Part shown: piece after piece, positions 1,340-44,599 of the stretch
How positions within the stretch are numbered: the stretch's first letter is position 1
Layout: each line of letters opens with the position of its first letter
Virus record (IMG/VR): IMGVR_UViG_3300034103_000313
Span: 1-45,233 of that record
From: a virus
Reading direction: 5' to 3' (one strand)
DNA length: 45,233 nucleotides
Notes under the pieces: model-generated
Seen by the model: the letters and a program-made list of their open reading frames with translations, nothing else
What the model was told of the DNA's origin: nothing
Databases searched by the model: none
Translations under genes and position numbers: made by a program

Positions 1340-1347
1340 GATAAATA
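1340..1347 (+). promoter_or_regulatory. T4-type late promoter for gp14 (leaderless geometry)
   Basis: GATAAATA, a match to the T4/cyanophage late -10 box (N)ATAAATA. In T4 this octamer spans -13 to -6, which predicts a start at about 1353, essentially on the ATG at 1352. No ribosome binding site is present. Confidence 0.7.
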
Positions 1348-1351
1348 CTAC

Positions 1352-3055
1352 ATGCCAAGATTAAGCCTTTACCGCGAAAACAAACAAAATGACTATCGTT
1401 TTTTGGACAGAACCATTTCTGAACAATTTACAGTGGGTGGTACGGATATGTATATTCACAAGTATTTGGGTCCTACGGATCAAGGTACTAGTATAGATTA
1501 TACTCAGCCTCAATATGATAGTTTAAACCCAAACAATATCCAAGACTTATTATTCCTTGAGAATAGAGATAGGTCATATGATCCAGATATTTATCGGCTT
1601 CGCGGACATTATAACGTCCAAAACTTAGATTTTGATTTAAGTCAGTTTGGTTTATTCTTAAATAATGACATTATTTTCATTACCGTTCATTACAATGATA
1701 TGATTGATATTATTGGTCGCAAGTTAATGGTTGGTGATGTATTAGAGTTACCGCACTTATTAGATTATAATCCGTTAAAAGAAGACATTCCCACTGCACT
1801 AAAACGATTCTATCAGGTAACCGATTCAAATTATGCTTCAGAAGGTTTTAGCCAAACTTGGTTCCCTCATCTATGGCGTATTAAATGTGAACCATTAGTT
1901 GATAGTCAAGAATTTAGTCAGATATTACAAGCTCCTATTAACAAAGATACTTATCTTGGTATATGGGATAAAGACAAAACATATCCTGCAGGATATGTAA
2001 TTACATTCGGTGATAAAAACTACACATCACTTACTGAAGTTCCTATAGGTGTTATGCCACCAAACGAAACATATTGGCAACTTAGTGATGCAGATAATCT
2101 CAAAGATATATTATCTACATATAATAGAAACATACAAATCAATAATGCAAGCATTAATGAAGCTAAACGATTAGTACCTAAATCTGGTTATGATAATAGT
2201 AAATTGTATGTAGTTCCCACATATGGGGAATATCAAGAAAACGGAGTATTTTCTGATAAAATTAATCAGCCAGCGCCGCCTGTAAATGTAAACACTACTA
2301 CAGGTTCTCCTACTGGTACAGTTACAATGATGCGTGACAAGAATTTTAAGAATCCAAGTCCAGTCATTAGAGTTCCTAAGGCAGCTTTAAAGAGCATATG
2401 GGACATGACCGCAGATATGGATCATGTTGATGCACTAGATAAGTTTGTTCAGGCTAGTTTGCAACTTGTAGAAGTAGCACCTAATAGAACATCTTCAGGC
2501 TCCGGTGCAGTATCTAATGATATGATATTGTCAGTTCAAAGTCTAGGTGCGATCACCGGACCATATGGTACTGCTGATAATACATATTCGACTGCTGATC
2601 AAAACCCTGAATTGCCTGGCTTCACAGGTGACATTACACAGCAAATGGATTATCGTGCTGACTGTGATCCTAGATTTCAATATATTGCTAGATCAAGTCC
2701 TAGAGATTTTGGATACAGTGCAGGCTACTTATCAGGTGATGGTCAAGCACCTAATGGATATCCAACTGGATCAGGTATATCGTTCCCACAAAATCCTCAA
2801 GTCGGAGACTATTTCTTACGAATTGACTATTTACCTCAACTACTATTCCGTTGGGATGGTACAATGTGGGTACGAATCAGTGAAAATGTAAGAACGGATA
2901 CGGGCTTCACTTACGATGATAAATCATTATTATCAGGCTTTATTAATAATGATAACGAAATTTATCTACAACAAACGCAAACAACTGTGCCAGAAGCACA
3001 GGGCTTGTCAACAATTCTTAGATTGTCACCTGACCCACTACCACCGATAGAATAA
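1352..3055 (+). CDS. 14: Neck protein gp14-like (head closure/neck), enlarged
   Basis: A 567-residue protein. Residues about 100-195 carry the gp14-like core: a G-x-K/R-L-x-V-G-D-V-x-E-x-P-H-L segment near 122-136, then F-Y-Q-V-T and W-F-P-H-L-W-R-I-K near 170-178. It precedes the gp15 homologue, as in T4. T4 gp14 (about 256 residues) joins the filled head to the tail. This protein is twice that size. Residues 203-244 resemble a small CBM5/12-type aromatic module (W, Y-P-A-G-Y, Y-T-S, W), and residues 481-512 resemble another tail-protein module ending W-D-G-T-M-W-V. The start is set by the late promoter directly upstream. Assignment rests on motif recall and gene order; the fused modules are inference. 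Confidence 0.68.
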   Translation: MPRLSLYRENKQNDYRFLDRTISEQFTVGGTDMYIHKYLGPTDQGTSIDYTQPQYDSLNPNNIQDLLFLENRDRSYDPDIYRLRGHYNVQNLDFDLSQFGLFLNNDIIFITVHYNDMIDIIGRKLMVGDVLELPHLLDYNPLKEDIPTALKRFYQVTDSNYASEGFSQTWFPHLWRIKCEPLVDSQEFSQILQAPINKDTYLGIWDKDKTYPAGYVITFGDKNYTSLTEVPIGVMPPNETYWQLSDADNLKDILSTYNRNIQINNASINEAKRLVPKSGYDNSKLYVVPTYGEYQENGVFSDKINQPAPPVNVNTTTGSPTGTVTMMRDKNFKNPSPVIRVPKAALKSIWDMTADMDHVDALDKFVQASLQLVEVAPNRTSSGSGAVSNDMILSVQSLGAITGPYGTADNTYSTADQNPELPGFTGDITQQMDYRADCDPRFQYIARSSPRDFGYSAGYLSGDGQAPNGYPTGSGISFPQNPQVGDYFLRIDYLPQLLFRWDGTMWVRISENVRTDTGFTYDDKSLLSGFINNDNEIYLQQTQTTVPEAQGLSTILRLSPDPLPPIE

Positions 3056-4430: not shown

Positions 4431-4438
4431 GATAAATC
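4431..4438 (+). promoter_or_regulatory. Late-promoter-like box before the Nudix gene
   Basis: GATAAATC, one base from GATAAATA. T4 spacing predicts a transcription start exactly at 4444, the A of the first good ATG of the Nudix gene. It lies just downstream of the gp15 stop. Confidence 0.45.
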
Positions 4439-4443
4439 ATTAT

Positions 4444-4848
4444 ATGACTTCCGCAGGAATTTTCTTTTATTGCAAAAATACTACTAGATATCTTTATCTG
4501 TTGCGTACAGATAAGAATCCTAGTTGGAGTATGCCTGGTGGCAAAATAGAAAATGACGAGACCTTACTAGAAGGACTTGAACGTGAGTGTTTAGAAGAAA
4601 TGCAAATTTGGGATAAAGATTGGAAACTTATACCTATTCAAAAATTTGTGAATGGTAGCTTCACGTATCATACGTTCTTCTGTTCAGTTGAAGAAGAATT
4701 CAGACCTATATTAAACAACGAACACTGTGGATATGCCTGGGTAGCAGAAGAATATTATCCCAAACCATTACATCCTGGTTTGTTTAATACAGTTAATTTT
4801 GATGTAGTGCAGACAAAACTAGAGACACTAACAAAAAAGGGGCTATAA
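4444..4848 (+). CDS. Nudix hydrolase
   Basis: A 134-residue protein with a near-complete Nudix box at residues 33-55: G33, then E39, R47-E48 and E51-E52. The usual glycine three residues before the end of the box is Gln54. Nudix enzymes hydrolyse nucleoside diphosphates linked to another group, and T4 encodes one (NudE). I chose ATG 4444, not upstream starts that would overlap gp15, because the protein then begins with the first beta strand (MTSAGIFFY) and a late-like promoter box ends six bases before it. The stop codon sits in the loop of the terminator that follows. The substrate is unknown. Confidence 0.85.
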   Translation: MTSAGIFFYCKNTTRYLYLLRTDKNPSWSMPGGKIENDETLLEGLERECLEEMQIWDKDWKLIPIQKFVNGSFTYHTFFCSVEEEFRPILNNEHCGYAWVAEEYYPKPLHPGLFNTVNFDVVQTKLETLTKKGL

Positions 4849-6642: not shown

Positions 6643-6650
6643 ACTAAATA
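6643..6650 (+). promoter_or_regulatory. Late promoter box for the 6655 gene (leaderless geometry)
   Basis: ACTAAATA, ending five bases before the ATG at 6655. T4 spacing predicts initiation at about 6656. There is no ribosome binding site between the box and the start. Confidence 0.55.
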
Positions 6651-6654
6651 TCGA

Positions 6655-7854
6655 ATGTCATTACTAAATCAAGATTCCTATTTCTACTTAGAAACACACA
6701 ATAACCGCAATTCAATTGCACCCGAACCCAAGATCAGACACGGTGGATGGCCAGGCACCGCAGTGAGAAACTGGGATGACAAAGATTACTGGTACGTAGA
6801 GTTTATCAATGGGGACGCTTTTTATCACTATCCCATAGAAAAACTAGCCGGACCTGAAATATACGAACAGATTAAAAAGGGTGAAGTTATATTGTGTATC
6901 TCTCATGTGCATGAAGCATATCATTATGTGGTTGAGGACATATACAATGATGTAGTTGTAGCTTCAGGTATAGATCCATCTAACATTCTATATTTGACAA
7001 ACTCTGCGGATATAGACAAAGAGATAGTTGCTGTTAGCTCAAAGTTAAATTTACCTAAGATCAAGTCAGAATTCATTAGTTTATTTGAACTAGTGGCTAA
7101 GCATGAATTGTTAACTAGGAGAAATGAGTATGCTTCTAATACTCTGGACAAAAAAACATATGACAATACATTTATATCTTTAAACGGACTATGGAGACCT
7201 CACAGATTATTAATGGTTTCGTTACTAGAAGCACTATCAATACGGACGAACGGATATGTAAGTCTCAATGCATGTATATGTGATTACCCATCGATGGATG
7301 AGATGTTTCCTGAAATGCTGAAGTGGTGTGTTAATTCAGAAGATGCTACTCAATTATTATTGTCTAATGAAAGTATAGTCAAAGCACTAGACAAACTATA
7401 TATCGATACTGATAGTTCAACTATACACTGGAAAGGGGCAGTGTATCATAGTTTACACAAACGATACTATGAAGATACTTATTTTTCAATAGTTACAGAA
7501 ACGCTTTGTAGTCCTGAGTTTTCTGCGGGTGGAAATACAATAGGAAGGGCGATAAGTGAAAAGACATTTAAACCGATGCTACATAAACATCCGTTCATGA
7601 TAGCAGGTGTGCCTGGTGTATTAAGATTGTTGAAAAAGTTAGGATATAAGACATTCAGTCCAATGATTGATGAATCATATGATGATGAACTCGATGCCTC
7701 TAAAAGATGCTTTATGATAGCTAAAGAAGCTGAAAGATTGGCTAGTCTAAAAGATGATGAGCTACAAGTATTTTTAAATAGTTGCAAGCCCATTGTTGAA
7801 TATAATTTAAATGTTCTTAAGTCTAAAGAAACCTTTGCACATCATATGACTTGA
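6655..7854 (+). CDS. Glycosyltransferase-like phage protein
   Basis: A 399-residue protein. The C-terminal half (about 275-345) has YFSIVTETL, then SEKTFKP, then PFMIAGVPGVLRLLKKLGYKTF and a DESYDDE stretch. The order of a 'V-T/S-E-T', an 'S-E-K-T-x-K-P' and a 'P-F-x-I-x-G' motif recalls the acceptor/nucleotide-sugar half of GT-B enzymes such as fucosyltransferases. The same signature is in the 8264-9343 gene, so the two are paralogues. It has its own late promoter and no ribosome binding site. It ends in a 13-base convergent overlap with the DUF6165-like gene. Glycosyl transfer is inferred; a conserved phage family of unknown activity is the safe description. Confidence 0.5.
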   Translation: MSLLNQDSYFYLETHNNRNSIAPEPKIRHGGWPGTAVRNWDDKDYWYVEFINGDAFYHYPIEKLAGPEIYEQIKKGEVILCISHVHEAYHYVVEDIYNDVVVASGIDPSNILYLTNSADIDKEIVAVSSKLNLPKIKSEFISLFELVAKHELLTRRNEYASNTLDKKTYDNTFISLNGLWRPHRLLMVSLLEALSIRTNGYVSLNACICDYPSMDEMFPEMLKWCVNSEDATQLLLSNESIVKALDKLYIDTDSSTIHWKGAVYHSLHKRYYEDTYFSIVTETLCSPEFSAGGNTIGRAISEKTFKPMLHKHPFMIAGVPGVLRLLKKLGYKTFSPMIDESYDDELDASKRCFMIAKEAERLASLKDDELQVFLNSCKPIVEYNLNVLKSKETFAHHMT

Positions 7855-8210
7855 GTGTGATATCGTTTTTTCTCACGAATAGGATCATTGAGTTTTTCTG
7901 CAATCCTATTTTTGATAGCGTAGCGATCTATGTTTATGTCTCTGATTAAAATTGCTCTTCGTCCAATTTCTTCTAATGGATATTTTAGTTCTACTACACA
8001 TTTCTTAAAGTCATCTTCCATATCCCAAATTCTACGATGTATGTCAGTTAATTCTTTTAAGTCTGCTTCTACTGTAGAAATATCGAATTCAGAACTAAGT
8101 TGTTCTTTATAAAAGTCAAACTCATCTTGGTTGTTTCCAAGTATACTGAGTTTTACCTGTGCTATGCAATATCTGTCTACTAATTCAATAAGTGCTAATT
8201 TAAATGCCAT
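7842..8210 (-). CDS. DUF6165-like protein
   Basis: A 122-residue helical protein. It shows the DUF6165 pattern: LIELVDRYCIAQVKL at residues 6-20, IHRRIWDMEDD near 57-67, and a conserved C-terminal segment DRYAIKNRIAEKLNDPIREKKRY. In bacteria this family tends to be encoded among glycosyltransferase genes, and here it sits between two glycosyltransferase-like genes on the other strand. It has a short leader with AGGAG about seven bases before the ATG, behind a late promoter box. The molecular function of the family is not known to me. Confidence 0.7.
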   Translation of the reverse strand: MAFKLALIELVDRYCIAQVKLSILGNNQDEFDFYKEQLSSEFDISTVEADLKELTDIHRRIWDMEDDFKKCVVELKYPLEEIGRRAILIRDINIDRYAIKNRIAEKLNDPIREKKRYHTQVI

Positions 8211-8226: not shown

Positions 8227-8234
8227 TATTTATG
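8227..8234 (-). promoter_or_regulatory. Late promoter box for the DUF6165-like gene
   Basis: CATAAATA on the minus strand, predicting a start near 8221 and a leader of about 10 bases that still contains AGGAG. It is divergent from the TATAAATA box at 8251. Confidence 0.65.
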
Positions 8235-8250
8235 TGTTGGGGGACAATCC

Positions 8251-8258
8251 TATAAATA
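8251..8258 (+). promoter_or_regulatory. Consensus T4 late promoter, leaderless geometry
   Basis: TATAAATA, a perfect T4 late -10 box. Taking the octamer as -13 to -6 puts +1 at 8264, the A of an in-frame ATG. This is the clearest example of start codon and transcription start coinciding in the window. Confidence 0.8.
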
Positions 8259-8263
8259 TCATT

Positions 8264-9343
8264 ATGACAACAGTTCACGAATTTAATAATTTAGAAAATG
8301 AAGTTTTCTATAAGAATACACAGGATAGGATCTATTATACAAGTGATCCTAAAGAACTGGGTATATTTGAAAGAGAATGGCTTAACAGCCTTAAAAAAGA
8401 GATAGTAAAACAATCTACATATCAGCACAATGTTTTGGTTAATTTGACATGGTTTAATGCAAATTGGGATAAGACAAAGCCATTGATAGATTTGGTAGAA
8501 AGTTTGGGCACCGACAAAGAAGTTAAAATATGGTATGCAGGATCAATTGATGGTAATTATTGGATTACATACTCCAACATGAATTTTTATCATTATTTGA
8601 CTGGAAAAGGTTATACTTCTTCGTTTGTAGGATTTTCTGATGAACATTGGCATTCTTGGATACCAAGTTGGTTTGTTGATAGTAATTTGAGAGCAGATAC
8701 TAATCAAATGATGCTTAACCATGATCCTAAAAACTTATATTTAGCCTACAACAGAAAACCTAGCATTCATCGGAAGTGGCTAGTAGATTCACTAAAAGAA
8801 AATAACTTGCTTAACAGAGGATGGATAACTTTTGAGCAAGGTCATTATCCAGAGATTGACAGCAAGACCGGAGAAACAGATCAAGAAAAGCATTCTAGTG
8901 ATACTAGATTTACTCGACCGGAAGATACATGTTCTTTGGGTGATTTGAATATATGGCGAGACAGTTATCTAGTAGTAGTAAGCGAAACAGAACACAATGA
9001 CCCATGGCACTTATCTGAAAAAACATGGAAACCTATCTTTGGTATGAGACCATTCTTAATCAATGGTAGCAGAGAAGTTTATAAAATACTTGAAAAGCTT
9101 GACCTATATACACCTAAAGACTTGTTTAAGAATGTTGACTTAGATTGTCATTACGAAAGTGTTGTCAAACAAATTCAGGCGCTTTATAACAAGACACCTG
9201 ATGAGTTGTATAGATTGTGGGAAGATCAGTTTGAAATGCTATTATACAATCGTCAACGAATGTTTGAGATTGCCAATGTAGATCGAACCAAGATACTAAA
9301 TTGGCCTCAAGCTAAATCTTATTCTGTACCTGTATTAGCGTGA
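8264..9343 (+). CDS. Glycosyltransferase-like phage protein, paralogue of the 6655 gene
   Basis: A 359-residue protein. An in-frame ATG ten codons upstream (8234) would lie before the promoter, so I use 8264. The C-terminal half has YLVVVSETE, then LSEKTWKP, then PFLINGSREVYKILEKLDLYT, the same motif order as in the 6655 gene although overall identity is low. A segment LYLAYNRKPSIHRKWLV in the middle recalls the N-R-x-x-x-H-R pattern of other phage proteins of this family. Transcription is from a consensus late promoter with no leader. It overlaps the convergent 9319-9606 gene by 25 bases. The sugar donor and acceptor are unknown. Confidence 0.5.
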   Translation: MTTVHEFNNLENEVFYKNTQDRIYYTSDPKELGIFEREWLNSLKKEIVKQSTYQHNVLVNLTWFNANWDKTKPLIDLVESLGTDKEVKIWYAGSIDGNYWITYSNMNFYHYLTGKGYTSSFVGFSDEHWHSWIPSWFVDSNLRADTNQMMLNHDPKNLYLAYNRKPSIHRKWLVDSLKENNLLNRGWITFEQGHYPEIDSKTGETDQEKHSSDTRFTRPEDTCSLGDLNIWRDSYLVVVSETEHNDPWHLSEKTWKPIFGMRPFLINGSREVYKILEKLDLYTPKDLFKNVDLDCHYESVVKQIQALYNKTPDELYRLWEDQFEMLLYNRQRMFEIANVDRTKILNWPQAKSYSVPVLA

Positions 9344-9619: not shown

Positions 9620-12565
9620 TTATAATCTTCCGACGGCGACTTCAATAACGCCTTCTATACCGTCAAAGTTTTCTAATGCTTTGCCGATGACTGTTCCCAT
9701 TTGTGGGTTGTTCCATGGTCTTGCAAATCCATTGCCTGCACTAACCATCATGTCTCCCTTACGCACTGTACCACGTACCTTAGTAGGTACACGACCTTGC
9801 AGTGCGATTGCTATTGCGATGCCCGGGCATTTTGTATTCATTGCATATGCTGGATCAGTGGAAACTACGCCTGCAACTCTTGCTGTTCCGTCTTGTGCTA
9901 ATGTAACTTCTTTATCACCACCAAACTCTAATACTGTACCGGGCTCATAATGAGCGTCAGCTTCATAGTATTCTGCTAAGTCAGCGTATGTTGCATTTAA
10001 TCTTGATCCTGCACTCAATGTCCAGTTACCAGTGATCTCGCCCGCAGTAGTATTTGCACCGGTAGTCAATACATTTGCAGTAATTCCACCGCCACCGCTT
10101 TGTCCTACAACAATACTACCATTACTACCTACAGTAAACTGGCTTGTGCCGCCAACTTGTAAATCTAATAAGAAGCTTCCAACTGCACTATTAGTGTTTG
10201 TGATATTCTGTCTAATGCCTGTAAATGCGACACTTGCATTATTCCATGTTTGCGTTATTAATATAGGTGTTGTTGCAGTAATAGAACCACTAGCTACACT
10301 TAGTCCTGACAATGTGCCTACACTAGTAATGTTTGCTTGTGCCGCGTTGGTTACTGTGTTAGCAGTTGATGCATGTGTAGCATTTGCTACAGTGCCAGTA
10401 ACGTTAGCACCCGGAATGCTTGTCAACCCAGTTGCCGCACCATAGAATGCGGCTGCGTAAACATTACCACCAACACCTACACCACCTGCAACTTCTAATG
10501 CACCTGTTGTTGTAGAACTAGATGCAGTAGTAAATCTAACGTTCATATGAGTATCATCAATGATAACTCTATCAGACAATGTTTGTACTGTATTTCCTGT
10601 ACTGCCCGTTGTAGCTGTTTGAAAAGTGATCTTACCTACAGTTGCATTACCAGTACTTGCACCTGCTTTGATCGCAATATCGCCACCGATATGATTTAAG
10701 CCGGCCGCCTCGCCGCCGGCTATCGTCATGTCGCCCCCGGCACCATCATATGTACCTCCAGTGATTATAACGTTACCACCTTTAGCACCATATGTATTAG
10801 CACTAGCACCTGATGTTATAGTTACGGTACCGCCTTGACCTTGTCCATAACCTTCACCACCTGATAGTGTAGCAAGGCCACCAGCTGCATTACCAGTAGC
10901 AGATGCGTTACCACCGTAAACATATAGTCCACCACCTACGCCAGTGCCGTTACCAGTTCCGCCGGTAAGGTTAATGTTTCCACCAGAGTCGTTTAGTGTC
11001 GTAGTTGCCCCACCGGTAATGTTCAGATCATCACCTGTTGTACCAAATGTTGAAATATCATTTGCTGTTAACTGACCAGACACAATCAATGACGTTAATG
11101 TACCTACACTAGTTACGTTTGGTTGAGCCGCTGTAGTTAATGTTCCACCTAACAATGTAGAACTCAATGCACCTGTTGCGGCATTGAATGTTAAGTTTGC
11201 GTTTGAGCCTTCTGCAACGTTGCCTGTTGCGGCATTAGCAAGTACTGGATAAAATGTTCCGGTTGTAACATCAGCTACACTAATAAAATCTGCAACGTTT
11301 GCATAAGCAACGTTTAAATTTGCTACTCGTGTTGTACTTGATACTGTTAATGGGGCAGTGCCGGTTGATACGTTTGATATTAACCTACTTGCTGTAACAT
11401 TGCCTGCTGTATCTAAGTTAGATCCTCTAATATTACCTACCGCTGTAATTGTAGTGTTAGCATATAGTATTGTTGCTGACAGATTACCTGTAGCTGCATT
11501 GAAGCCTAAGTTAGCATTAGCACCTAATGCTCTATTTGCAGTAGCGCTACCATTGACAAATACAGGAAAGAATGTTCCTGTATTTTGTAAAGTAGTAACA
11601 CCAAAGTCACTTACGTTAGAGTATGTTACATTTAAATTACCGACACGGGTTGTACTTGTAACTGCTAGTGGTGCTGTACCGACAGCTACATTTGAAACTA
11701 ATCTTGATGCGGTAACTGTTCCGGTAGCATTTAAATTGCCTACGTTAGCATTGCCACTAACTGCTAGAATATTGTTAGTATAATCCCATGTAAAGTCAGC
11801 ATCACCGTCTAAGACGCCGCTATTGTTAAACTGAACAGTACCTGAACTGCCACCGGCTACTCCTGTGCCTCCACCAGTCCCGGAAATAACGCTAGTAGCA
11901 ATAGCAACGTTTGGAGTTGATGCCCCTAAGTTTGTGCCAACGGCTGCTATTGTTCTACCGGAATCAGTGAATAAGCTCACGTTTCCTGAAGTTGCATAAT
12001 TTACTGATAGTGTAATATAAAAAGTCTGTCCGTTAACAATAGAGTTAGCGTTAGCACCATTAGCTCCTGTAATAGTGACTGCTGTACCATTAGTATATGG
12101 AACTGTATTTGCTACTCGCATTACGATTGGAGTTGCATTACTTAATGAAATGATTGGAGTATATAATGTGCCCTTAGGAGTCCAGGCTAGATTGCCTAAG
12201 CCGTCTGTTTCTAACACATATCCGATGGCGCCGCCACCAATACTTACATTAGCGACATTTCCTAAGTCAATTAATCCACCTGCATCCCCGCCACGATTGA
12301 CCCAATTTGTTCCATCATATGCTAAAATTTGACCATCGTCTACTGAAATAGCTGATATATCTAAGTTACCAACGGAACCCTCAAGTTGACTAAACGCAAT
12401 ATTTGAATAAGAAGTGAGAACCTCAATGTTCTCATTTGGGGAAACTTTACCGATAAACAGTCGTTTAGCATCACTAGCAAAACCAAACTCAGCCTCATCA
12501 AGCTGTGGTAAGTCAACGATGTTTCCCGAACGTTGTTGGATTTTTGAGATTTGTACTATAGCCAT
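9620..12565 (-). CDS. Tail-fibre-like structural protein
   Basis: A 981-residue protein. The N-terminus (1-40), VQISKIQQRSG...LPQLDEAEFGFA...RLFIGK, matches the N-terminal domain found in phage tropism determinants and T4-like cyanophage fibres. Residues 285-367 and 391-472 are two tandem related modules (TASRLxSNV, GTAPL, STTRV, NLNV). Residues about 525-640 are glycine-rich with GG-x-x-x-x-x-GG repeats. Residues about 860-981 form a compact C-terminal domain beginning YADLAEYYEAD, also seen at the end of other T4-like fibre proteins. It is probably a receptor-binding or whisker-like fibre. Expression is from a late promoter with a leader of about 22 bases. Confidence 0.75.
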   Translation of the reverse strand: MAIVQISKIQQRSGNIVDLPQLDEAEFGFASDAKRLFIGKVSPNENIEVLTSYSNIAFSQLEGSVGNLDISAISVDDGQILAYDGTNWVNRGGDAGGLIDLGNVANVSIGGGAIGYVLETDGLGNLAWTPKGTLYTPIISLSNATPIVMRVANTVPYTNGTAVTITGANGANANSIVNGQTFYITLSVNYATSGNVSLFTDSGRTIAAVGTNLGASTPNVAIATSVISGTGGGTGVAGGSSGTVQFNNSGVLDGDADFTWDYTNNILAVSGNANVGNLNATGTVTASRLVSNVAVGTAPLAVTSTTRVGNLNVTYSNVSDFGVTTLQNTGTFFPVFVNGSATANRALGANANLGFNAATGNLSATILYANTTITAVGNIRGSNLDTAGNVTASRLISNVSTGTAPLTVSSTTRVANLNVAYANVADFISVADVTTGTFYPVLANAATGNVAEGSNANLTFNAATGALSSTLLGGTLTTAAQPNVTSVGTLTSLIVSGQLTANDISTFGTTGDDLNITGGATTTLNDSGGNINLTGGTGNGTGVGGGLYVYGGNASATGNAAGGLATLSGGEGYGQGQGGTVTITSGASANTYGAKGGNVIITGGTYDGAGGDMTIAGGEAAGLNHIGGDIAIKAGASTGNATVGKITFQTATTGSTGNTVQTLSDRVIIDDTHMNVRFTTASSSTTTGALEVAGGVGVGGNVYAAAFYGAATGLTSIPGANVTGTVANATHASTANTVTNAAQANITSVGTLSGLSVASGSITATTPILITQTWNNASVAFTGIRQNITNTNSAVGSFLLDLQVGGTSQFTVGSNGSIVVGQSGGGGITANVLTTGANTTAGEITGNWTLSAGSRLNATYADLAEYYEADAHYEPGTVLEFGGDKEVTLAQDGTARVAGVVSTDPAYAMNTKCPGIAIAIALQGRVPTKVRGTVRKGDMMVSAGNGFARPWNNPQMGTVIGKALENFDGIEGVIEVAVGRL
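11150..11713 (-). repeat. Tandem repeat of about 83 residues within the fibre-like gene
   Basis: Two copies coding for residues 285-367 and 391-472 align throughout: TASRL(V/I)SNV, GTAPL, STTRV, NLNV, then TGTF(F/Y)PV, ANL, FNAATG, LS. The copies have diverged at many positions, so this is an old duplication and not a recent one. Confidence 0.75.
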
Positions 12566-12593: not shown

Positions 12594-12601
12594 TATTTAT
12601 C
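12594..12601 (-). promoter_or_regulatory. Late promoter box for the fibre-like gene
   Basis: GATAAATA on the minus strand, with predicted start near 12588 and a leader of about 22 bases. It lies just after the stop of the plus-coordinate-adjacent nuclease gene. Confidence 0.65.
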
Positions 12602-14693: not shown

Positions 14694-15419
14694 TTACCTC
14701 TTGGCACGACCTACCGCGCCACCTACATCTGGTTCAGGTTCTTCCAAATCAGGACCCATATCAGTAGTCACATCGGAGTCCATATCTGCACCTAATTCAG
14801 CATCCATGCCAGCGTCCATGCCTGCCATTTCGTCACCCATACCAGTGTCTAATCCTGCATCCATACCAGCATCAGCAAAGCCACCGCCTTGACCAGTAAT
14901 ACTGTCACGAGCAGACTTCAATGCAGAGAAAGCCTCTTTCAATGCACCGCTTAATGTATCTAGTTGACCAGAAACTTGATCGTTGTATGATTGTGCTTCA
15001 TTGACACCAATCTCAGATTCAATAGAATCGACCAATGCAGGTAGTTCTTTGACTTGCATTTGACCAATGCTTTCTAGCATTTTTTGTACGCTATCCACTA
15101 GGTCTTGTGCTGCCAAAACAACTTGAGACTTGTCTACTTCTTCATTCTCTACAACGATACGAGTTCTTGGTTGACTCAATAATTCATTGTAACGCTGAAC
15201 TAAAGCCTGTTCCATAAATACAAGTTTCATGTAGCTAGGGCTAGTTTGGTTTCTGTGGAAGTCAGTAGATTCTTTGGCTTCATTTGCCAAAGTGCGGACT
15301 TTTTGTAGCATTTTCTGCGTGTCATTTTTTGTCATGCCTGTTACATCAAAGGACATTTGATAGTTCTCTGATAATGCTTTAGGTGCATAAGTTTTTTTGT
15401 CAAAATCGGTTAATTTCAT
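14694..15419 (-). CDS. Late helical protein with acidic Met/Gly/Asp-rich tail
   Basis: A 241-residue protein. Residues about 20-175 are helical with coiled-coil character. Residues about 176-241 are an acidic low-complexity tail with repeats of the type AGMDAG and GMG-D, ending in a basic GRAKR. It has a late promoter and an 18-base leader. Acidic helical late proteins of this shape in T4-like phages are often prohead core components, but I cannot show that here. Its codons for the tail look like slipped duplications of a Gly-Met-Asp unit. Confidence 0.6.
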   Translation of the reverse strand: MKLTDFDKKTYAPKALSENYQMSFDVTGMTKNDTQKMLQKVRTLANEAKESTDFHRNQTSPSYMKLVFMEQALVQRYNELLSQPRTRIVVENEEVDKSQVVLAAQDLVDSVQKMLESIGQMQVKELPALVDSIESEIGVNEAQSYNDQVSGQLDTLSGALKEAFSALKSARDSITGQGGGFADAGMDAGLDTGMGDEMAGMDAGMDAELGADMDSDVTTDMGPDLEEPEPDVGGAVGRAKR

Positions 15420-15443: not shown

Positions 15444-15451
15444 TATTTATC
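15444..15451 (-). promoter_or_regulatory. Late promoter box for the 14694-15419 gene
   Basis: GATAAATA on the minus strand, predicted start near 15438. It overlaps the last codons of the upstream 15447-15917 gene. Confidence 0.65.
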
Positions 15452-15917
15452 TTTTTGCTACAAACTTTCTAGTTTGCCAGTTTTTAGACTCATTTACAAA
15501 TGAAGCTAATTCTATTATCATCTGCTTTCTTTTTGCCTGTTCTTCACTTAATTTAGCGATATAAATCAGTTGATTCTCAGTATTACTGGTTTTTCTGATG
15601 AGGTTTTTGTGAACCTCAATACTAACTTCAGTACCTGCTAACATGTTGTCTAAGTATTCAATTCTTCTGGCTTGTGTAAATTTTGTTCTATTTTCAAAAA
15701 TACACCAAGTCAATGCGTTTTTTAATGATGAGAAAATTTTGACATCAGAGTTATACTTGAGATGGACTTCGTATCCAGTTTTAACTTGATGTACAGTGTA
15801 TCTATTAAAAAATTCATAGCTACCGTCATTATTTTGAATCATTGAGATATTAGACATGTTCTGCAAAAATTCTTTGCTAAGAAACTGGCTAATCTTGTTA
15901 ATCATTACATCATTCAT
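15447..15917 (-). CDS. Hypothetical phage protein
   Basis: A 156-residue basic protein, mixed alpha/beta in the first half (MIQNNDGSYEFFNRYTV, GYEVHLKY) and helical in the second. The ATG overlaps the end of the upstream gene by eight bases, and an alternative Met four codons later is possible. No ribosome binding site is obvious, so translation is probably coupled. No family is recognised. Confidence 0.6.
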   Translation of the reverse strand: MNDVMINKISQFLSKEFLQNMSNISMIQNNDGSYEFFNRYTVHQVKTGYEVHLKYNSDVKIFSSLKNALTWCIFENRTKFTQARRIEYLDNMLAGTEVSIEVHKNLIRKTSNTENQLIYIAKLSEEQAKRKQMIIELASFVNESKNWQTRKFVAKR

Positions 15918-16365
15918 ATTCTACTGTAAAATATATGTTTTTTAATTCGTCACTTGTATCTAAAAAGCTAGGAAGCTTTTCCCACTCAGTCCCGCATCGT
16001 ATCATGGGTACGCCGTTGCAATCATTATACAATGAACCCAACTCTGAGATACCATCATTGAATACACTATGATGGTGAATGTCGAATGAGAACTTCCAAC
16101 ATGGATAAGTCTCGTTTTCTAACTGTTGAAACAGAAATCCAAAGTTATCAAACTCATCAAATTTTATATCGACTCGTTTTGGCATCGACACTATTTCTGG
16201 TTGTGATCTCAGTGAGATTACTTGCAATATTGTATCAAAGTTTGCTTGCGTGTTTCTTTTCTTAATCCATTCCGTCATTTCTTGGTCATCGCCGGGTCGT
16301 GAACGATTCAATACACCGGTTTGTGTAATATCGAATAAGGTATGACAGGTGATTCTAAAACTCAT
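15910..16365 (-). CDS. Conserved T4-like phage protein, unknown function
   Basis: A 151-residue protein. I recognise the segments TLFDITQTGV, ANFDTILQVISLRSQPE, ELGSLYNDC and EWEKLPSFLDTS from conserved hypothetical proteins of T4-like cyanophages. The box TCTAAATA ends five bases before its ATG, so the predicted transcript begins at the start codon. This, and its position next to virion genes, suggests a late structural or assembly role. Confidence 0.7.
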   Translation of the reverse strand: MSFRITCHTLFDITQTGVLNRSRPGDDQEMTEWIKKRNTQANFDTILQVISLRSQPEIVSMPKRVDIKFDEFDNFGFLFQQLENETYPCWKFSFDIHHHSVFNDGISELGSLYNDCNGVPMIRCGTEWEKLPSFLDTSDELKNIYFTVEYE

Positions 16366-16369
16366 ATAG

Positions 16370-16377
16370 TATTTAGA
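16370..16377 (-). promoter_or_regulatory. Late promoter box, leaderless geometry
   Basis: TCTAAATA on the minus strand; +1 is predicted at 16364, one base inside the ATG at 16365. It lies between the terminator at 16384-16414 and the gene, so it restarts transcription after that terminator. Confidence 0.6.
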
Positions 16378-16383
16378 GAGGTA

Positions 16384-16414
16384 AAAAAACCCGAGAATAA
16401 ATCTCGGGTTTTTT
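16384..16414. terminator. Rho-independent terminator
   Basis: A perfect 13-bp stem: AAAAAACCCGAGA (16384-16396) with TCTCGGGTTTTTT (16402-16414), loop of five. It lies just after the stop of the 16428-16799 gene on the minus strand and would work in either direction. Confidence 0.93.
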
Positions 16415-16427
16415 AATTAAGTTAAAA

Positions 16428-16799
16428 TTAACCTGTGAATGTAGCAGTAGCTGCAACAGAAACGTTAGCACTTGTCCAAGCTGCTGTTAAAGCAGTGTCA
16501 AGTGAAGTTGTTGTCCATGCGCCAACTGGGTAAATAGCGATTGCCAATGTGTCATCTGTAGCGTTTGTGTACTCATAGATGTGCATAGTAGCTAATTGCT
16601 CAACAGTTTGGAACACTGTAGCGATGTTGTCAGCGATTTGTGAACCGTTACCAGTAATCGTGAAGAAGTCTAGCTTAGGACCTTGAGGCTGAACTGTAGC
16701 CGCAGAAGTTAAAGCATTGACGCCAGAGTTTGTATACGCTGGGCTATCGTAGTTGATTACGGGTAAAAAGTCACCGTTAACTCTTGTAAATTGTGCCAT
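16428..16799 (-). CDS. Small abundant-type virion protein
   Basis: A 123-residue neutral protein with the pattern MAQFTRVNGDF...QPQGPKLDFFTITG, which I recognise from virion-associated proteins of other T4-like phages. It is a complete monocistronic unit: late promoter, 40-base leader, strong ribosome binding site (AAGGA nine bases before ATG) and a strong terminator. That arrangement suggests high late expression, as for a decoration protein. The exact particle location is not known. Confidence 0.7.
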   Translation of the reverse strand: MAQFTRVNGDFLPVINYDSPAYTNSGVNALTSAATVQPQGPKLDFFTITGNGSQIADNIATVFQTVEQLATMHIYEYTNATDDTLAIAIYPVGAWTTTSLDTALTAAWTSANVSVAATATFTG

Positions 16800-16844: not shown

Positions 16845-16852
16845 TATTTATG
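16845..16852 (-). promoter_or_regulatory. Late promoter box for the 16428-16799 gene
   Basis: CATAAATA on the minus strand, predicted start near 16839. The leader of about 40 bases carries AAGGA. Confidence 0.65.
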
Positions 16853-18044: not shown

Positions 18045-19072
18045 TTTGCCCCCATTTGACTTTGAATTCGTTTTTCTAGATTAGCATATTCGTCCGGTGT
18101 AGGTGCACCGGGTTTATTGCCCCGGACTGCACCTGCTGCTGGGGCCGATTTTGCCGCCGGCTCTGCTGGAACAGGGGTGTTTGCTGCCTTAACTAATTCT
18201 TGTACAAAACTAGAATACGCTGTTTTATCTAATGCGTTCAATCTTGTCATTGCTGTTCTGATTCCAGCTGCAAGTTCTTTAGCACTTGATGCAGTACTGA
18301 TAGCCTTCATCATAGCGTCTGATGCTTTTGGACCTTGTTGTCCCGGCTGACCTTGTTGTGCCTGACCACCAAACCCTGGGGCAAAGCTAGCGGCATAAGA
18401 AGCATTAGCTAATTGAGTTAGTGCAGCCTTGCCTTTATCCTGAGCATAAGTGTCTTCGATAGATTGTATCAACGACTGAGTGTGAGGATCTGATAAATTC
18501 ACACCCTTCATATATGTAGGTAACCAACGCTTAAAGAATTGTCCTACAGATTCAGCTTCTGTTAATAAGCTCTCAAAAATAGTGTTTAATCTATCATAGC
18601 GACTTTCACGCTGAACTGCACCACTACCGCCTACATAATCTTTAAATCCTGCACCTGTCTTTTTACCTAAACCTTGGCCAGCCTTCAACTTGCCCTTCAG
18701 CTTTGCAGCCGCTTGCGGGTCAACCTTTTGAGGGGCTGCCGGCTTTGCTGGTGATGCCATTTGAGATTGTGCATTTGCGGCGGCGACTTTTTGTTTTTCT
18801 GCTCTAATTTCTGCGGGTGTTTTTGGTTTCGGAGTAGAAGATGCACTAGGATCTACTCGGCCGCTTTCAATCTCGCTGTTTAGTGTTGCATACGCTCTTG
18901 CTACAAAATCGTTGATGAACTTATTTTTGCCCATCTTTTCTGCAACAGATAACTCACCTTCAGTATCACCCTTCATTCTGTTCTTCATCTGTTGAACAGT
19001 GGATGCGCCGTAATTACCAATCCAGTTTTCTAACTTTTCATCAACCCGCTGTTGAAAATCATTCAGCCTCAT
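18041..19072 (-). CDS. Hypothetical protein with Ala/Pro/Gln linkers
   Basis: A 343-residue protein: a helical N-terminus (MRLNDFQQRVDEKLENWIGNYG), a low-complexity Lys/Ala/Pro linker (about 75-135), a helical core containing RLNTIFESLLTEAESVGQFFKRWLPTYMKG (about 160-190), a Gln/Gly linker near 240 and a Pro/Ala-rich C-terminus. The core segment is typical of late proteins in environmental T4-like phages, but no activity is known. It overlaps the 19059-19307 gene by 14 bases. Confidence 0.6.
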   Translation of the reverse strand: MRLNDFQQRVDEKLENWIGNYGASTVQQMKNRMKGDTEGELSVAEKMGKNKFINDFVARAYATLNSEIESGRVDPSASSTPKPKTPAEIRAEKQKVAAANAQSQMASPAKPAAPQKVDPQAAAKLKGKLKAGQGLGKKTGAGFKDYVGGSGAVQRESRYDRLNTIFESLLTEAESVGQFFKRWLPTYMKGVNLSDPHTQSLIQSIEDTYAQDKGKAALTQLANASYAASFAPGFGGQAQQGQPGQQGPKASDAMMKAISTASSAKELAAGIRTAMTRLNALDKTAYSSFVQELVKAANTPVPAEPAAKSAPAAGAVRGNKPGAPTPDEYANLEKRIQSQMGAK

Positions 19073-19307
19073 GATTTTTCCTTATACTTTTAGCAAATCT
19101 TGCTTGGTCTCGCCCTTTGATTGCACTTAATAGTTTCTTTTCCAATAGCTCGGAAGTATCCTTATCATAGTGTTTGTTAATCAACTCAATCAAATTTATT
19201 GCGCTGGTAATGATGTTATGTGCTCTGTTTTCAATAACATGAGTCATATCACGATCATTACCAATCGCTTCTAATTCTTCCAAAAGGGAACGGGTTTTCT
19301 TTTGCAT
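19059..19307 (-). CDS. Small helical hypothetical protein
   Basis: An 82-residue, all-helical, highly charged protein. It has its own late promoter box and a 12-base leader with AGGA. It leads the operon with the 18041 and 16881 genes. No family recognised. Confidence 0.55.
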   Translation of the reverse strand: MQKKTRSLLEELEAIGNDRDMTHVIENRAHNIITSAINLIELINKHYDKDTSELLEKKLLSAIKGRDQARFAKSIRKNHEAE

Positions 19308-19324: not shown

Positions 19325-19332
19325 TATTTATG
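19325..19332 (-). promoter_or_regulatory. Late promoter box
   Basis: CATAAATA on the minus strand, predicted start near 19319. It lies just beyond the stop of the helicase gene, separating early replication genes from the late operon. Confidence 0.6.
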
Positions 19333-40408: not shown

Positions 40409-43027
40409 TTATCTGTTAACGATTCTCATCATTGCAGCCAAATCTTCTTTTCCTTCACCAACTAAGTCACCCACTGTTGCTGGTTTGTTTGCTTTAGGAC
40501 CTTTGTTACGCCACTGACCAGCTTCACCTGTTGCAAAATCACCTGCGAACTCACCTTCCGCCATACCTTGCTGACCATACAAAGACTCTAGTTCTTCTCC
40601 TACTAGAGCCAAGGCGACCGCATCTCCCGTGCCTCGAAACTGACCCATTTCTGCCATATCAACCACAACGTCTTCAACTTCGCCCATGCCATAATTGTCA
40701 AACCATTCTGGTTTATGTCGTTGTATTAGTCTCAATACTTTACTGGCACCGGCTGGTGTTGCTGCTTCCGCCACACCTTCTTCAGATATAGGTTCTTCTT
40801 TACTGCTATACTTAGCACGGATGTTTTGCATTGTCTTTTCGCTAGCATCTTCTTGTCCAGCTTTGCGTAGTGCATCCATACCATCTTTACCGTACTTCTT
40901 ATCACCTAAGTATGCTTGTAGTGCGCTTTCTTCAACTTCTTCACCGGCTCTGAATCTCTTAACCATTGCTTTAAGTGCTTCAAGTTTGTCATCGGGTACA
41001 TCCATATAATGGTCGTGTCCCATTTTCTTTGATGCTTTTCCTAATGCAGTGAAGTGATCCATTTTACCATTATCTTGTTTTGGTTCATTTCTTAATGAAC
41101 TGTCGGCTTGACCCATATCAACTTCATCAGTACGCTTCTCAACATCAGATTGGGCCATGCTTGGCTTACCGTGATTTGGCCCACGAACTCCTGCTTTCTT
41201 TTGCAAGTCTTTTAGTAAATCTTCGTCACTTCCGTGACCTAATTTATCTAACACTTTGCCGCCGACTTTCTTGACTGTGTCCAAGATACCTTCGTCAACT
41301 CCACTTAGTGATTGTTCAATTTGTTTAATCCAACCACTAACATCACTTGAACCAATTTCGTCAACATCACCAACAAACTCAGCAACATCACCGATTGCAT
41401 TAGAAACCTTTTCTGGTCCGTGCTTTGCTAGCAAATCTGTTCGTTGCATTAAGATTCTTCTTAGAATAGCACTAGCGACTGGACTATCGATTTCATCTGA
41501 TCCATCTAACATTCCTTCTTCTACACCTTCAATGGCACTACTTCCGCGATTGTTGAATCTTGCCTTGATAGTGTTCTTCCTATAGTCACTGTCTTGCTTG
41601 TACATTTTACCAGCTTTAGTCTGTCTATCTATTGGCTTTTTCCAACTCATCGGATCATAGCCTTGATCGTGATCTTTTCTAGGGAAGTGCATCTTGTCAG
41701 TGCCAGCTTCAATTGTAGAAGCAACACGGTCACCAAACTCTGATCTAATCATGTTTAAAACTTCTTCTGGATCTTCATACTCGGAATCATAGTAATCTGA
41801 CGGATCTGTACTGTCTCTATACATGCCGATAAGATCGTCAAGTCTTGCTCGTTTCTCTGGATCCATTGCTTCATCTAATTCATCTTCTTCAGGGATTCCA
41901 ACTGGATTCAATGCTTGTTGTCCGCCATCAGTTTCATCTAAATCAAATGCATCTAGTCTAGACTTTTCTGTTGCTTGATTGTGAGCCAATGTTTCTGCAC
42001 CAGGAGCTTCTACTAAACTATCTGCCCATTCAGCTAGTTCACTGACTTCTTTCATCTCACCTAAGTTCTTGCTTAGTTTATTAAGAATTGGCATTACTGA
42101 TTCGATACGAGGATCCAATGTTTCTTGTACAAACAATTCATTTAGATTATTTTGCTCATCACCCTCGTTCTCCATCAATGAAGGAGTCCATGATTCAAAG
42201 TATGTGTTATAACCACGACTGCCGCGCAACTTGCTTAGTGATTCACGCAATGTTTGATAGTGATTCAATCCTTCGTTAACTAGTCGTTGTGCTGACTCAT
42301 TGAATTGATTGCCACGAACGGCACGAACGAATCCTGCCATCTTTGAGTATTCTTCACAGATAGTCTTTAAGTGATTCCAGCGATCATCGTTAGGGATTCC
42401 ACCTTCTGCTAAATGGCGAGCATATACTTGCGCAAGACCGGGTTTGTTTGTAGGAGAAAGAAATCTTTCACCTTCTGCATTTTCTAAGAAAATCTTAGAA
42501 ACATTACGATATCTCTGCTCACCTTCTTGAATTTGGCGAGAATGTTGTAGGATAATCTTTACAGTCGGTACTGCATCGCTGTAACTTGCTGTCTTACCCA
42601 TTGGATAGTATCCTTCTGCGATTTGTTCTTTCTTCTTCATATAAGTCCTTTGTGACATGTCACTATCAATTTTTTCTTTGGGTTCTAATTTAAAGCTCAA
42701 TTGACGAGCATGGGCCCACTTTTTCAAATGTCTTAATAATCCGTACCAACTATCATCAAACTGTGTTCCGGGTGTTCTATCGGACGCTTTGTTTGCTAGT
42801 TCTTGGTCGTAATATAATGTTAGATTTTGAGCACCATCAACTGATACCCAAGCATCATCTATCTGTTTGTCACCTTGGGTGAACGTAAACTTGAATACGT
42901 CAGCTTCTTCCGGAGGCACAGATTTTCCTGCACTAGCAACATCACTGTCTCTAGGTACTGGATTGTAACCGCGGGAATTCAAGAGATCGTATAATTTACG
43001 GTTTAAAGAATCATTTTGTATTGGCAT
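40409..43027 (-). CDS. Large late protein with prohead-protease-like sites
   Basis: An 872-residue acidic protein. It lies right after terminase and is led by a late promoter whose box ends five bases before the ATG. Six sites of the form (hydrophobic)-x-E-(G/A) lie between distinct segments: IAEG 136-139, VEEG 502-505, VDEG 577-580, VAEA 752-755, MAEG 822-825, VGEG 856-859. T4 gp21 protease cuts after (L/I)-x-E, so these look like maturation sites. Residues 515-575 (ILRRILMQRTDLLAKHGPEKV...GDVDEIGSSDVSGW) match a domain repeated in environmental phage proteins. It is probably an internal head or scaffold-like polyprotein; no catalytic motif is seen. Confidence 0.55.
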   Translation of the reverse strand: MPIQNDSLNRKLYDLLNSRGYNPVPRDSDVASAGKSVPPEEADVFKFTFTQGDKQIDDAWVSVDGAQNLTLYYDQELANKASDRTPGTQFDDSWYGLLRHLKKWAHARQLSFKLEPKEKIDSDMSQRTYMKKKEQIAEGYYPMGKTASYSDAVPTVKIILQHSRQIQEGEQRYRNVSKIFLENAEGERFLSPTNKPGLAQVYARHLAEGGIPNDDRWNHLKTICEEYSKMAGFVRAVRGNQFNESAQRLVNEGLNHYQTLRESLSKLRGSRGYNTYFESWTPSLMENEGDEQNNLNELFVQETLDPRIESVMPILNKLSKNLGEMKEVSELAEWADSLVEAPGAETLAHNQATEKSRLDAFDLDETDGGQQALNPVGIPEEDELDEAMDPEKRARLDDLIGMYRDSTDPSDYYDSEYEDPEEVLNMIRSEFGDRVASTIEAGTDKMHFPRKDHDQGYDPMSWKKPIDRQTKAGKMYKQDSDYRKNTIKARFNNRGSSAIEGVEEGMLDGSDEIDSPVASAILRRILMQRTDLLAKHGPEKVSNAIGDVAEFVGDVDEIGSSDVSGWIKQIEQSLSGVDEGILDTVKKVGGKVLDKLGHGSDEDLLKDLQKKAGVRGPNHGKPSMAQSDVEKRTDEVDMGQADSSLRNEPKQDNGKMDHFTALGKASKKMGHDHYMDVPDDKLEALKAMVKRFRAGEEVEESALQAYLGDKKYGKDGMDALRKAGQEDASEKTMQNIRAKYSSKEEPISEEGVAEAATPAGASKVLRLIQRHKPEWFDNYGMGEVEDVVVDMAEMGQFRGTGDAVALALVGEELESLYGQQGMAEGEFAGDFATGEAGQWRNKGPKANKPATVGDLVGEGKEDLAAMMRIVNR

Positions 43028-43031
43028 AATC

Positions 43032-43039
43032 TATTTATC
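43032..43039 (-). promoter_or_regulatory. Late promoter box, leaderless geometry
   Basis: GATAAATA on the minus strand; +1 predicted at about 43026, on the ATG at 43027. The box overlaps the stop of the terminase gene. Confidence 0.65.
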
Positions 43040-44585
43040 AACTTATCACAGCAAAGAAGGGTAAGGGTTCAATGTATTCATCATGGTCTCGGATTTGTTC
43101 TTCTAATTTATAGTGATAGTCTGATAATTCCTGCATCATTCTGATTGTTAATAGACTGGCCATGACTAAATCGTCTGTTTCACCAATTTTGGCTGCATAA
43201 CTGCCACCGGACGCAATAAATGACTTTAACTCAGATACTAAACTTCTGCTGTTTATCGTCATCTTTTTACTCTCAATCAACGTTTTGAATTTGGCACATG
43301 CCGATAATTTCACTTTTTGCGTAGTGTTGAAACCTTTTCTCTTTTTACCTTTTTCGCTTAAGAAAATTCCAGGAATATTACTTTCCCCATATTCGTTTAA
43401 CGATATCAAAGATGCTTCACCTATCGAATTATTTTCTACTGAATAATAGATATTGCTTGCTTCACCGGTACAATCTTCGATGTATTTGTTTATTTGTGCT
43501 AGCAATTTAATTTGAGTAGGAATGTCAGTTTTGTTGTGCTTCCATTCGCCTATTTGTGTAGTAGTGTTCGCTTCGTATATCTGTATAGCTGCAGGGTCAC
43601 TACCTGTGCCCAAGCTTGGGTCTAATGCAACAGTATATATGTTACCCTTACTAGGTTTTTTATACCAACGTACTTGACCCATACGACTAACTGGTTCTAT
43701 ACCTTCTAAATCAACTAACGTAGTAGGAGCTATCAATGTTTCGTCAGCAATAATGAATTCGCATCCAATCTCTCGACGGAATCTATCTTCACCTAATTGG
43801 GCTTTCATTTCATCAGCCCATTTTTGGTCACGTCCGGGCTGTTCAGTCCAATATGCTCTGTATGATTTGAAGCCGTTAACTCCTAGTTCGGTTTCATTAC
43901 CGTATGAATCTTCACACTTGTTCGCTAGTTTCCAAATTAGAGCAAATTGATCTTCATCACTGTTTGGAGTTGATGTGATAATCGCTTTACCACCAGTAGA
44001 TAAAGTAGGTGTGATAGAAGTCCAGAACAATTCAGCAATGGAAGGTCTAACGAATGCAAACTCATCTAAGTATAGCAATGAAATAGACATACCACGACCT
44101 GTATTTTCTGTCGTGGTTGCTGAAACGATACGAGATCCGTTCTCGAAATCTAAAGACCCTTTGTTATAAGTGGTCACACCTGCTTTAATGTGGTCGGGAC
44201 AGGCTTCATATGCATAACGAATACGTTGCATAATCTCCTGTGCGCCAGTATACTTGTGCGCCGCAATAAGAATCGTACTGTCAGGTACAAACATAGCGTA
44301 CCAAAGTAGATATCCTGCGGCTGATGTTGACTTACCTGACTGTCGAGGCATTAGACTGATACTGAAACGATATTTGTGATATGTTTCTATTAATCGTTCT
44401 TGATATTTCCATGGATGATAATTCATACTACCCCTAGTAGGGTGCTGAATCATAAAGAAGTTATCCATGAAGTACAGATAACCCGTATCCGGATCGCAAC
44501 ATTTCACAAAGTCGTCAAGGTCTCTTTGTGTCTTGAATTTAGTCTTTGTGTAGGGCGTTTTTACTAAAGAAGGTGATCCACTCAT
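43038..44585 (-). CDS. 17: Large terminase subunit gp17-like (packaging motor)
   Basis: A 515-residue terminase. LMPRQSGKST (78-87) is Walker A, LLYLDEFAF (170-178) is Walker B with the catalytic Glu, ITSTPN (203-208) is the coupling motif, and VALDPSLGTGSD (319-330) is the start of the RNase H-like nuclease domain, with a later E in YSVENNS and DD in ETDDLVM. It translocates DNA into the prohead and cuts concatemers. T4 gp17 is about 610 residues, so the N-terminus is shorter. No small terminase subunit is visible next to it. Its start codon lies on the predicted late transcription start. Confidence 0.95.
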   Translation of the reverse strand: MSGSPSLVKTPYTKTKFKTQRDLDDFVKCCDPDTGYLYFMDNFFMIQHPTRGSMNYHPWKYQERLIETYHKYRFSISLMPRQSGKSTSAAGYLLWYAMFVPDSTILIAAHKYTGAQEIMQRIRYAYEACPDHIKAGVTTYNKGSLDFENGSRIVSATTTENTGRGMSISLLYLDEFAFVRPSIAELFWTSITPTLSTGGKAIITSTPNSDEDQFALIWKLANKCEDSYGNETELGVNGFKSYRAYWTEQPGRDQKWADEMKAQLGEDRFRREIGCEFIIADETLIAPTTLVDLEGIEPVSRMGQVRWYKKPSKGNIYTVALDPSLGTGSDPAAIQIYEANTTTQIGEWKHNKTDIPTQIKLLAQINKYIEDCTGEASNIYYSVENNSIGEASLISLNEYGESNIPGIFLSEKGKKRKGFNTTQKVKLSACAKFKTLIESKKMTINSRSLVSELKSFIASGGSYAAKIGETDDLVMASLLTIRMMQELSDYHYKLEEQIRDHDEYIEPLPFFAVIS

Positions 44586-44591
44586 AGTACG

Positions 44592-44599
44592 TATTTATG
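44592..44599 (-). promoter_or_regulatory. Late promoter box for terminase, leaderless geometry
   Basis: CATAAATA on the minus strand; +1 predicted at 44586, one base before the ATG at 44585. Confidence 0.65.

Follow-up and report, generated by a model that had tools for sequence, protein, structure and literature searches.

Late boxes next to start codons suggest a class of leaderless late genes in T4-related jumbo phages

Described leaderless genes and phage late promoters

Leaderless phage mRNA is known from the lambda cI gene transcribed from PRM. That mRNA likewise begins at its AUG, but it serves a single regulator gene, whereas the candidate class described here is a conserved one of late virion genes. 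Kasugamycin inhibits leaderless translation relatively little. The T4 late promoters (gp55/gp33/gp45, TATAAATA) resemble the boxes of the present locus in sequence and position, in the late structural genes lying downstream and in the gp55-like sigma factor found among relatives. The T4 late box occupies positions -13 to -6 relative to the transcription start site (PMC1524935). In T4, S-PM2 and PAC2, unlike in the phages described here, the box mostly lies at least 16 bases upstream of the gene, often with a Shine-Dalgarno (SD) site, and close cases number zero to two, not exceeding the controls.

In the leaderless genes of bacteria such as Actinobacteria and Deinococcus, a -10 box is located about 10 bases before the ATG (PMC3160421). 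Bacterial and haloarchaeal leaderless genes share with the present ones the lack of an SD and a promoter box placing the start site on the ATG; they depend, however, on host sigma-70 or TATA/TBP, whereas here a phage late promoter would drive a stage-specific class with SD-led genes alongside. Few leaderless genes occur in the known proteobacterial and Bacteroidetes genomes (PMC3160421), which counts against a leaderless reading here. The late promoters of phiKZ also have a very short distance between motif and start site (TATG overlaps the start site), but they are read by another phage RNA polymerase from another motif and are not described there as tied to the start codon (PMC7618050). According to one paper, transcripts of phages often lack a leader (PMC5312081). 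Leaderless genes, their detection through a -10 box near the ATG (PMC3160421) and T4 late promoters are therefore already known. The earlier note on this DNA was aware of no description of T4-like phages with a whole class of leaderless late genes, and a search of open-access papers returned no report of one.

Late boxes of the window

The window, i.e., the whole analysed stretch of 45,233 nucleotides, is a 45-kb virus record of a T4-related jumbo phage lineage. The closest relatives of that lineage in culture are PA5oct-like phages and Atu_ph07. The gp14-like protein of the window matches those of both at about 40%, and its terminase matches the PA5oct-like terminase at 48%. Seven genes had been reported to start shortly after a shared box, and the coordinates given for all seven boxes are correct. 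On the plus strand, GATAAATA (1340-1347; gap, i.e., number of bases between box end and ATG, 4) precedes the putatively leaderless gene of a gp14-like virion (neck) protein (1352-3055; phrog_11591, virion structural protein), which is followed by a gene for a gp15-type tail sheath stabilizer; GATAAATC (4431-4438, gap 5) precedes the Nudix gene 4444-4848; ACTAAATA (6643-6650, gap 4) precedes gene 6655-7854, with a GT-B-like fold; and TATAAATA (8251-8258, gap 5) precedes gene 8264-9343. On the minus strand, TCTAAATA (16370-16377, gap 4) belongs to gene 15910-16365, a second copy of GATAAATA (43032-43039, gap 4), overlapping the terminase stop codon, to the 872-aa gene 40409-43027, and CATAAATA (44592-44599, gap 6) to the terminase gene 43038-44585. 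The close spacing noted earlier is thus real, although the ATG begins 5-7 bases past the box end rather than 5-6, and the box is exact TAAATA in six of the seven genes, the Nudix gene having a variant of the TAAATC type. An SD core is absent from its usual place in all seven, as had been stated; it is present in 20 of the 50 listed window genes, among them late-box genes with leaders.

Leadered late-box genes of the window, all on the minus strand, serve for comparison: gene 7842-8210 (box 8227-8234, gap 16, SD AGGAG), gene 19059-19307 (box 19325-19332, gap 17, SD AGGA), gene 16428-16799 (box 16845-16852, gap 45, SD AAGGA), gene 14694-15419 (box 15444-15451, gap 24) and the tail-fibre-like gene 9620-12565 (box 12594-12601, gap 28).

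About 35 homologues keep the Nudix box at gap 5 together with its unusual final C, a pattern that would fit selection for a weak variant. The box of the 6655-7854 gene is retained in five homologues, and a homologue of gene 8264-9343 (L090) is leadered, with an AAGGA site and a gap of 18. The proteins of these two genes have a SEKT-KP motif in common. The model of the 6655-7854 protein is confident (pTM 0.81) and gives weak GT-B glycosyltransferase matches; the label "glycosyltransferase-like" attached to it earlier is supported by these fold matches only, since neither Pfam nor PHROG gives a match. The viral proteins closest to it are unnamed ones of uncultured phages. The AlphaFold2 model of the 872-aa protein is of low confidence (pTM 0.26).

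Spacing, translation signals and room for a leader

The window alone offers just six exact cases, and chance or misplaced gene starts in A+T-rich DNA might be thought sufficient to produce them. Yet six window starts with exact TAAATA at gap 4-6 stand against about 0.5 expected from permutations of the same six letters (mean 0.5, maximum 2; Poisson P ~1.4e-5 at the control mean rate), in agreement with the earlier judgement that the seven cases are unlikely to be accidental. Exact TATAAATA was rejected as the window motif: it has one copy, below chance, which makes the broader NNTAAATA the appropriate motif. The comparison set consisted of 160 lake-contig relatives, fetched via the terminase and the gp14-like protein, and of 400 kb out of a 524-kb relative. 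The same spacing, which the earlier note had suggested looking for in related genomes, recurs at gap 4-6 across the 160 relatives. With the window added and near-copies removed, the gap histogram has 39 cases at 4, 79 at 5, 17 at 6, 8 at 7 and 9 at 8; its distribution is bimodal, with the spike at 4-6, 0-2 cases per gap over 9-16 and a second hump at 17-26. When the three best-populated families are excluded and the 524-kb relative is included, 40 of 135 families have gaps of 4-6 and 6 of 135 gaps of 9-15; the 400 kb of the 524-kb relative hold 37 close cases, the control mean being 5.0. When the plain pattern is counted over whole genomes with no gene models, the contrast is weaker because chance matches dominate A+T-rich DNA. 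The permutation controls, the recurrence in 47 families, the retention of the geometry in divergent homologues and, independently, the annotation of phage HTVC008M refute the chance explanation, to which we give practically no weight.

The same histogram bears on another explanation, in which TAAATA near the ATG acts as an A+U-rich translation enhancer or standby site within a longer leader, the relevant promoter lying elsewhere. A+U-rich leaders do aid S1-dependent initiation. An enhancer, however, would not need a fixed gap of 4-6. The box is moreover an exact six-letter one with G/A/C preferences 5' of it, and there is a second mode at 17-26, where the SD lies downstream of the box. Among the letter permutations of TAAATA, 11 of 14 show no peak, and the three that do (AAATAT, ATAAAT and TATAAA) are the same box offset by one or two bases. 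An enhancer role is accordingly very unlikely.

The boxes are better read as late promoters. They are NATAAATA-like, with TAAATA and a base directly 5' that is mostly A (or C), and 7 of 17 related records, among the larger relatives, code for a gp55-like sigma (phrog_234, E ~1e-22), one example being G001:341765-342070; no gp55-like gene was found in the window, a 45-kb fragment. In the close class (gap 4-6) an SD core is present in 10 of 170 genes, compared with 79 of 146 genes at gap 16-30 (p 9e-23), and the difference persists when each family is counted once (2/47 close vs 36/64 leadered; p 3e-9). The start codons at gap 4-6 are ATG in 170 cases, GTG in 2 and TTG in 2. A T stands directly 5' of the ATG in 32 of the 47 close families, and the leadered promoters of the same phages favour T and then A at box+4/+5. 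The T-A step being shared with leadered promoters, the initiating pyrimidine-purine step would fall on the start codon. The T4 start site lies 6 bases past the box, with which the T-A at box+4/+5 of leadered genes agrees within a base.

By T4 spacing, gap 5 places the A of the ATG at +1; gap 4 puts it strictly at -1, so the start site would have to shift by one or two bases between genes. In some relatives the gap is 7-8, which implies leaders of 2-3 bases, and the gaps of 6-8, together with a spanin-like family divided between 5 and 8, could be taken to mean that these mRNAs carry very short leaders of 1-3 bases and are not strictly leaderless. The main peak at gap 5 speaks against this as a general description, which we consider very unlikely, and an SD could not fit into such a leader anyway.

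Evidence on the space available for a leader comes from terminators and divergent genes. A predicted intrinsic terminator with a 13-bp stem and a U tract (16382-16414, minus strand; -18.1 kcal/mol, z -6.9), plain in folding and unlisted by the terminator scan, is located directly upstream of the box ending at 16377 and separates the 15910-16365 gene from upstream transcription. The same terminator-box layout occurs in L172. A terminator shortly upstream of the box was found in ten non-redundant close cases from five families and in none of the shuffles, and some terminase homologues have one directly before the box. In addition, divergent pairs in L132, L143, L001 and HTVC008M have start codons 25-29 bp apart, with one box per gene at gap 5-6. 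Terminator-adjacent boxes and 25-29 bp divergent spacers leave no space for a leader.

These layouts also bear on the possibility that the late promoters are real and that most protein nevertheless comes from longer readthrough mRNAs, the ATGs being used without SD (through coupling or A+U-rich leaders) and the close promoter only supplementing them. Several boxes do lie in short gaps between co-oriented genes (10 bases from the terminase to the 872-aa gene), where readthrough mRNA may coexist, a point against the leaderless reading, and one Nudix clade lacks the box and starts at the upstream gene's stop codon. The terminators directly before the box at the 16365 gene and in terminase homologues argue the other way, as do divergent genes like gp14, unreachable from an upstream co-oriented gene; coupling, moreover, leaves the fixed gap of 4-6 unexplained. 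We regard readthrough as the main protein source as unlikely.

Two further arrangements were observed. In HTVC008M (18914-18945), end protector and head closure genes diverge from 26 bp with two late boxes, one per gene. In L027:3310-3352, L045, L067, L059 and L039:4650-4689, a late box lies within the 5' arm of an intrinsic-terminator hairpin (GATAAATACTCACT..AGTGAGTATTTTTTTT-ATG); the first four genes belong to the family of phrog_1645. For the full RNA the fold has -12.7 kcal/mol (z -4.8), whereas an RNA started at the promoter reaches -2.9 and cannot form the hairpin. The leader is poly-U without SD, and the predicted fold suggests that the promoter could escape the terminator it overlaps.

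Upstream DNA is otherwise diverged among homologues while the gap stays at 4-6. No longer conserved N-termini were found in the homologues, which start at the same residue, the PAC2 terminase included. The sequence tests thus support a class of putatively leaderless genes, defined by promoter-at-start geometry, missing SD and ATG start. The leaderless interpretation put forward earlier is supported on the following grounds: (i) fixed and bimodal gaps; (ii) SD absence; (iii) ATG bias; (iv) the initiation step; (v) upstream terminators; (vi) short divergent spacers. We infer from these the identity of the box as a late promoter, the position of the transcription start and the way in which ribosomes initiate. 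A gp55-like phage sigma, acting with the host RNA polymerase, would recognize T4-type late promoters (NNTAAATA), and the first transcribed base would be the A of the ATG or one at most 1-2 bases from it. The resulting mRNAs would be leaderless, with a 5'-terminal AUG recognized directly by the ribosome and not through SD pairing, while other late genes would have a promoter of this type followed by a short leader that often carries an SD. A conserved leaderless class of late genes, beside ordinary SD-led ones and driven by gp55-type promoters on the start codon, is the reading we favour, at a probability of about 0.84.

Gene families, distribution and meaning of the class

The mode is mostly conserved within a gene family. 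Leaderless-type spacing (gap 4-8) is found in 80 of 82 boxed terminase homologues, 76 of 78 of the 872-aa family, 62 of 76 of gp14 and 36 of 36 of the spanin-like family; at gap 4-6 the counts are 78/82 for terminase and 70/78 for the 872-aa family, and the 62 gp14 homologues have the close-box geometry. The head-tail adaptor, tail sheath and a baseplate/fibre-like family are leadered in 123 of 124 cases. The leaderless mode may suit low-copy late proteins (terminase, neck protein, spanin-like protein, modifying enzymes), in contrast to the tail sheath and some other virion proteins, which would be given leaders. The gp14 tree contains about 5 mode changes, at least 2 of them on well-supported branches, against a shuffled mean of 15.4, and some leadered gp14 homologues acquire an SD. 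In L106, L108 and L109 the gp14-like gene apparently begins with ATT behind a strong AAGGAG site. The class proposed in the earlier note comprises only part of the late genes; this partial share, the mostly per-family conservation and the presence in a cultured phage had been overlooked.

That phage, HTVC008M of Pelagibacter, has 11 close genes (control mean 0.7), ten of them at a gap of exactly 5; gp020, gp025, gp026, gp053 and gp063 are among the eleven. Its deposited starts agree for the close genes inside the annotated stretches examined, which include those for tape measure, gp2-type end protector, head-closure, tail completion and baseplate proteins. T4 and S-PM2 contain no close-class case, and in the PA5oct-like phage PAC2 close cases are no more frequent than in controls and the gap histogram shows no class. 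The class likely originated separately in the lake lineage and HTVC008M. We propose tentatively, at somewhat below even odds, that within the T4 superfamily the lake jumbo phages and pelagiphage HTVC008M, and thus two lineages or more, independently made part of their late regulon leaderless, so that two initiation routes run at once, the leaderless one setting the dose of low-copy virion proteins or escaping leader/SD control.

Phage ribosomal protein bS21 was considered as a cause and rejected: it is present in G001, G003, G005 and HTVC008M, yet also in PAC2, Atu_ph07, SCTP-2 and Phosso. Among the last four carriers, the gap histogram covers PAC2 only; in Atu_ph07 and SCTP-2 the plain pattern is no more frequent than its reversed control, and a stricter pattern finds no match in Phosso. 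The relatives of bS21, 34-50% matches scattered across many phyla, were uninformative about the host. About 39 bases upstream of the bS21 genes at L195:1440-1486 and L196:1435-1480 lies a late box, and their leader may contain a small hairpin, TTTTGG-AGC-CAAAA.

Most of what is known about bacterial leaderless translation comes from isolated genes or from certain phyla, Actinobacteria among them. In the present phages it would concern a conserved, probably stage-specific class transcribed from a well-understood phage promoter, beside SD-led genes under the same promoter. The switching of gp14 between the leaderless and leadered modes amounts to a natural experiment, and HTVC008M on Pelagibacter is a cultured system for the class. 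In gene calling, the box can be used to set the starts in such phages. Initiation in these late genes probably differs from the well-studied T4 mode.
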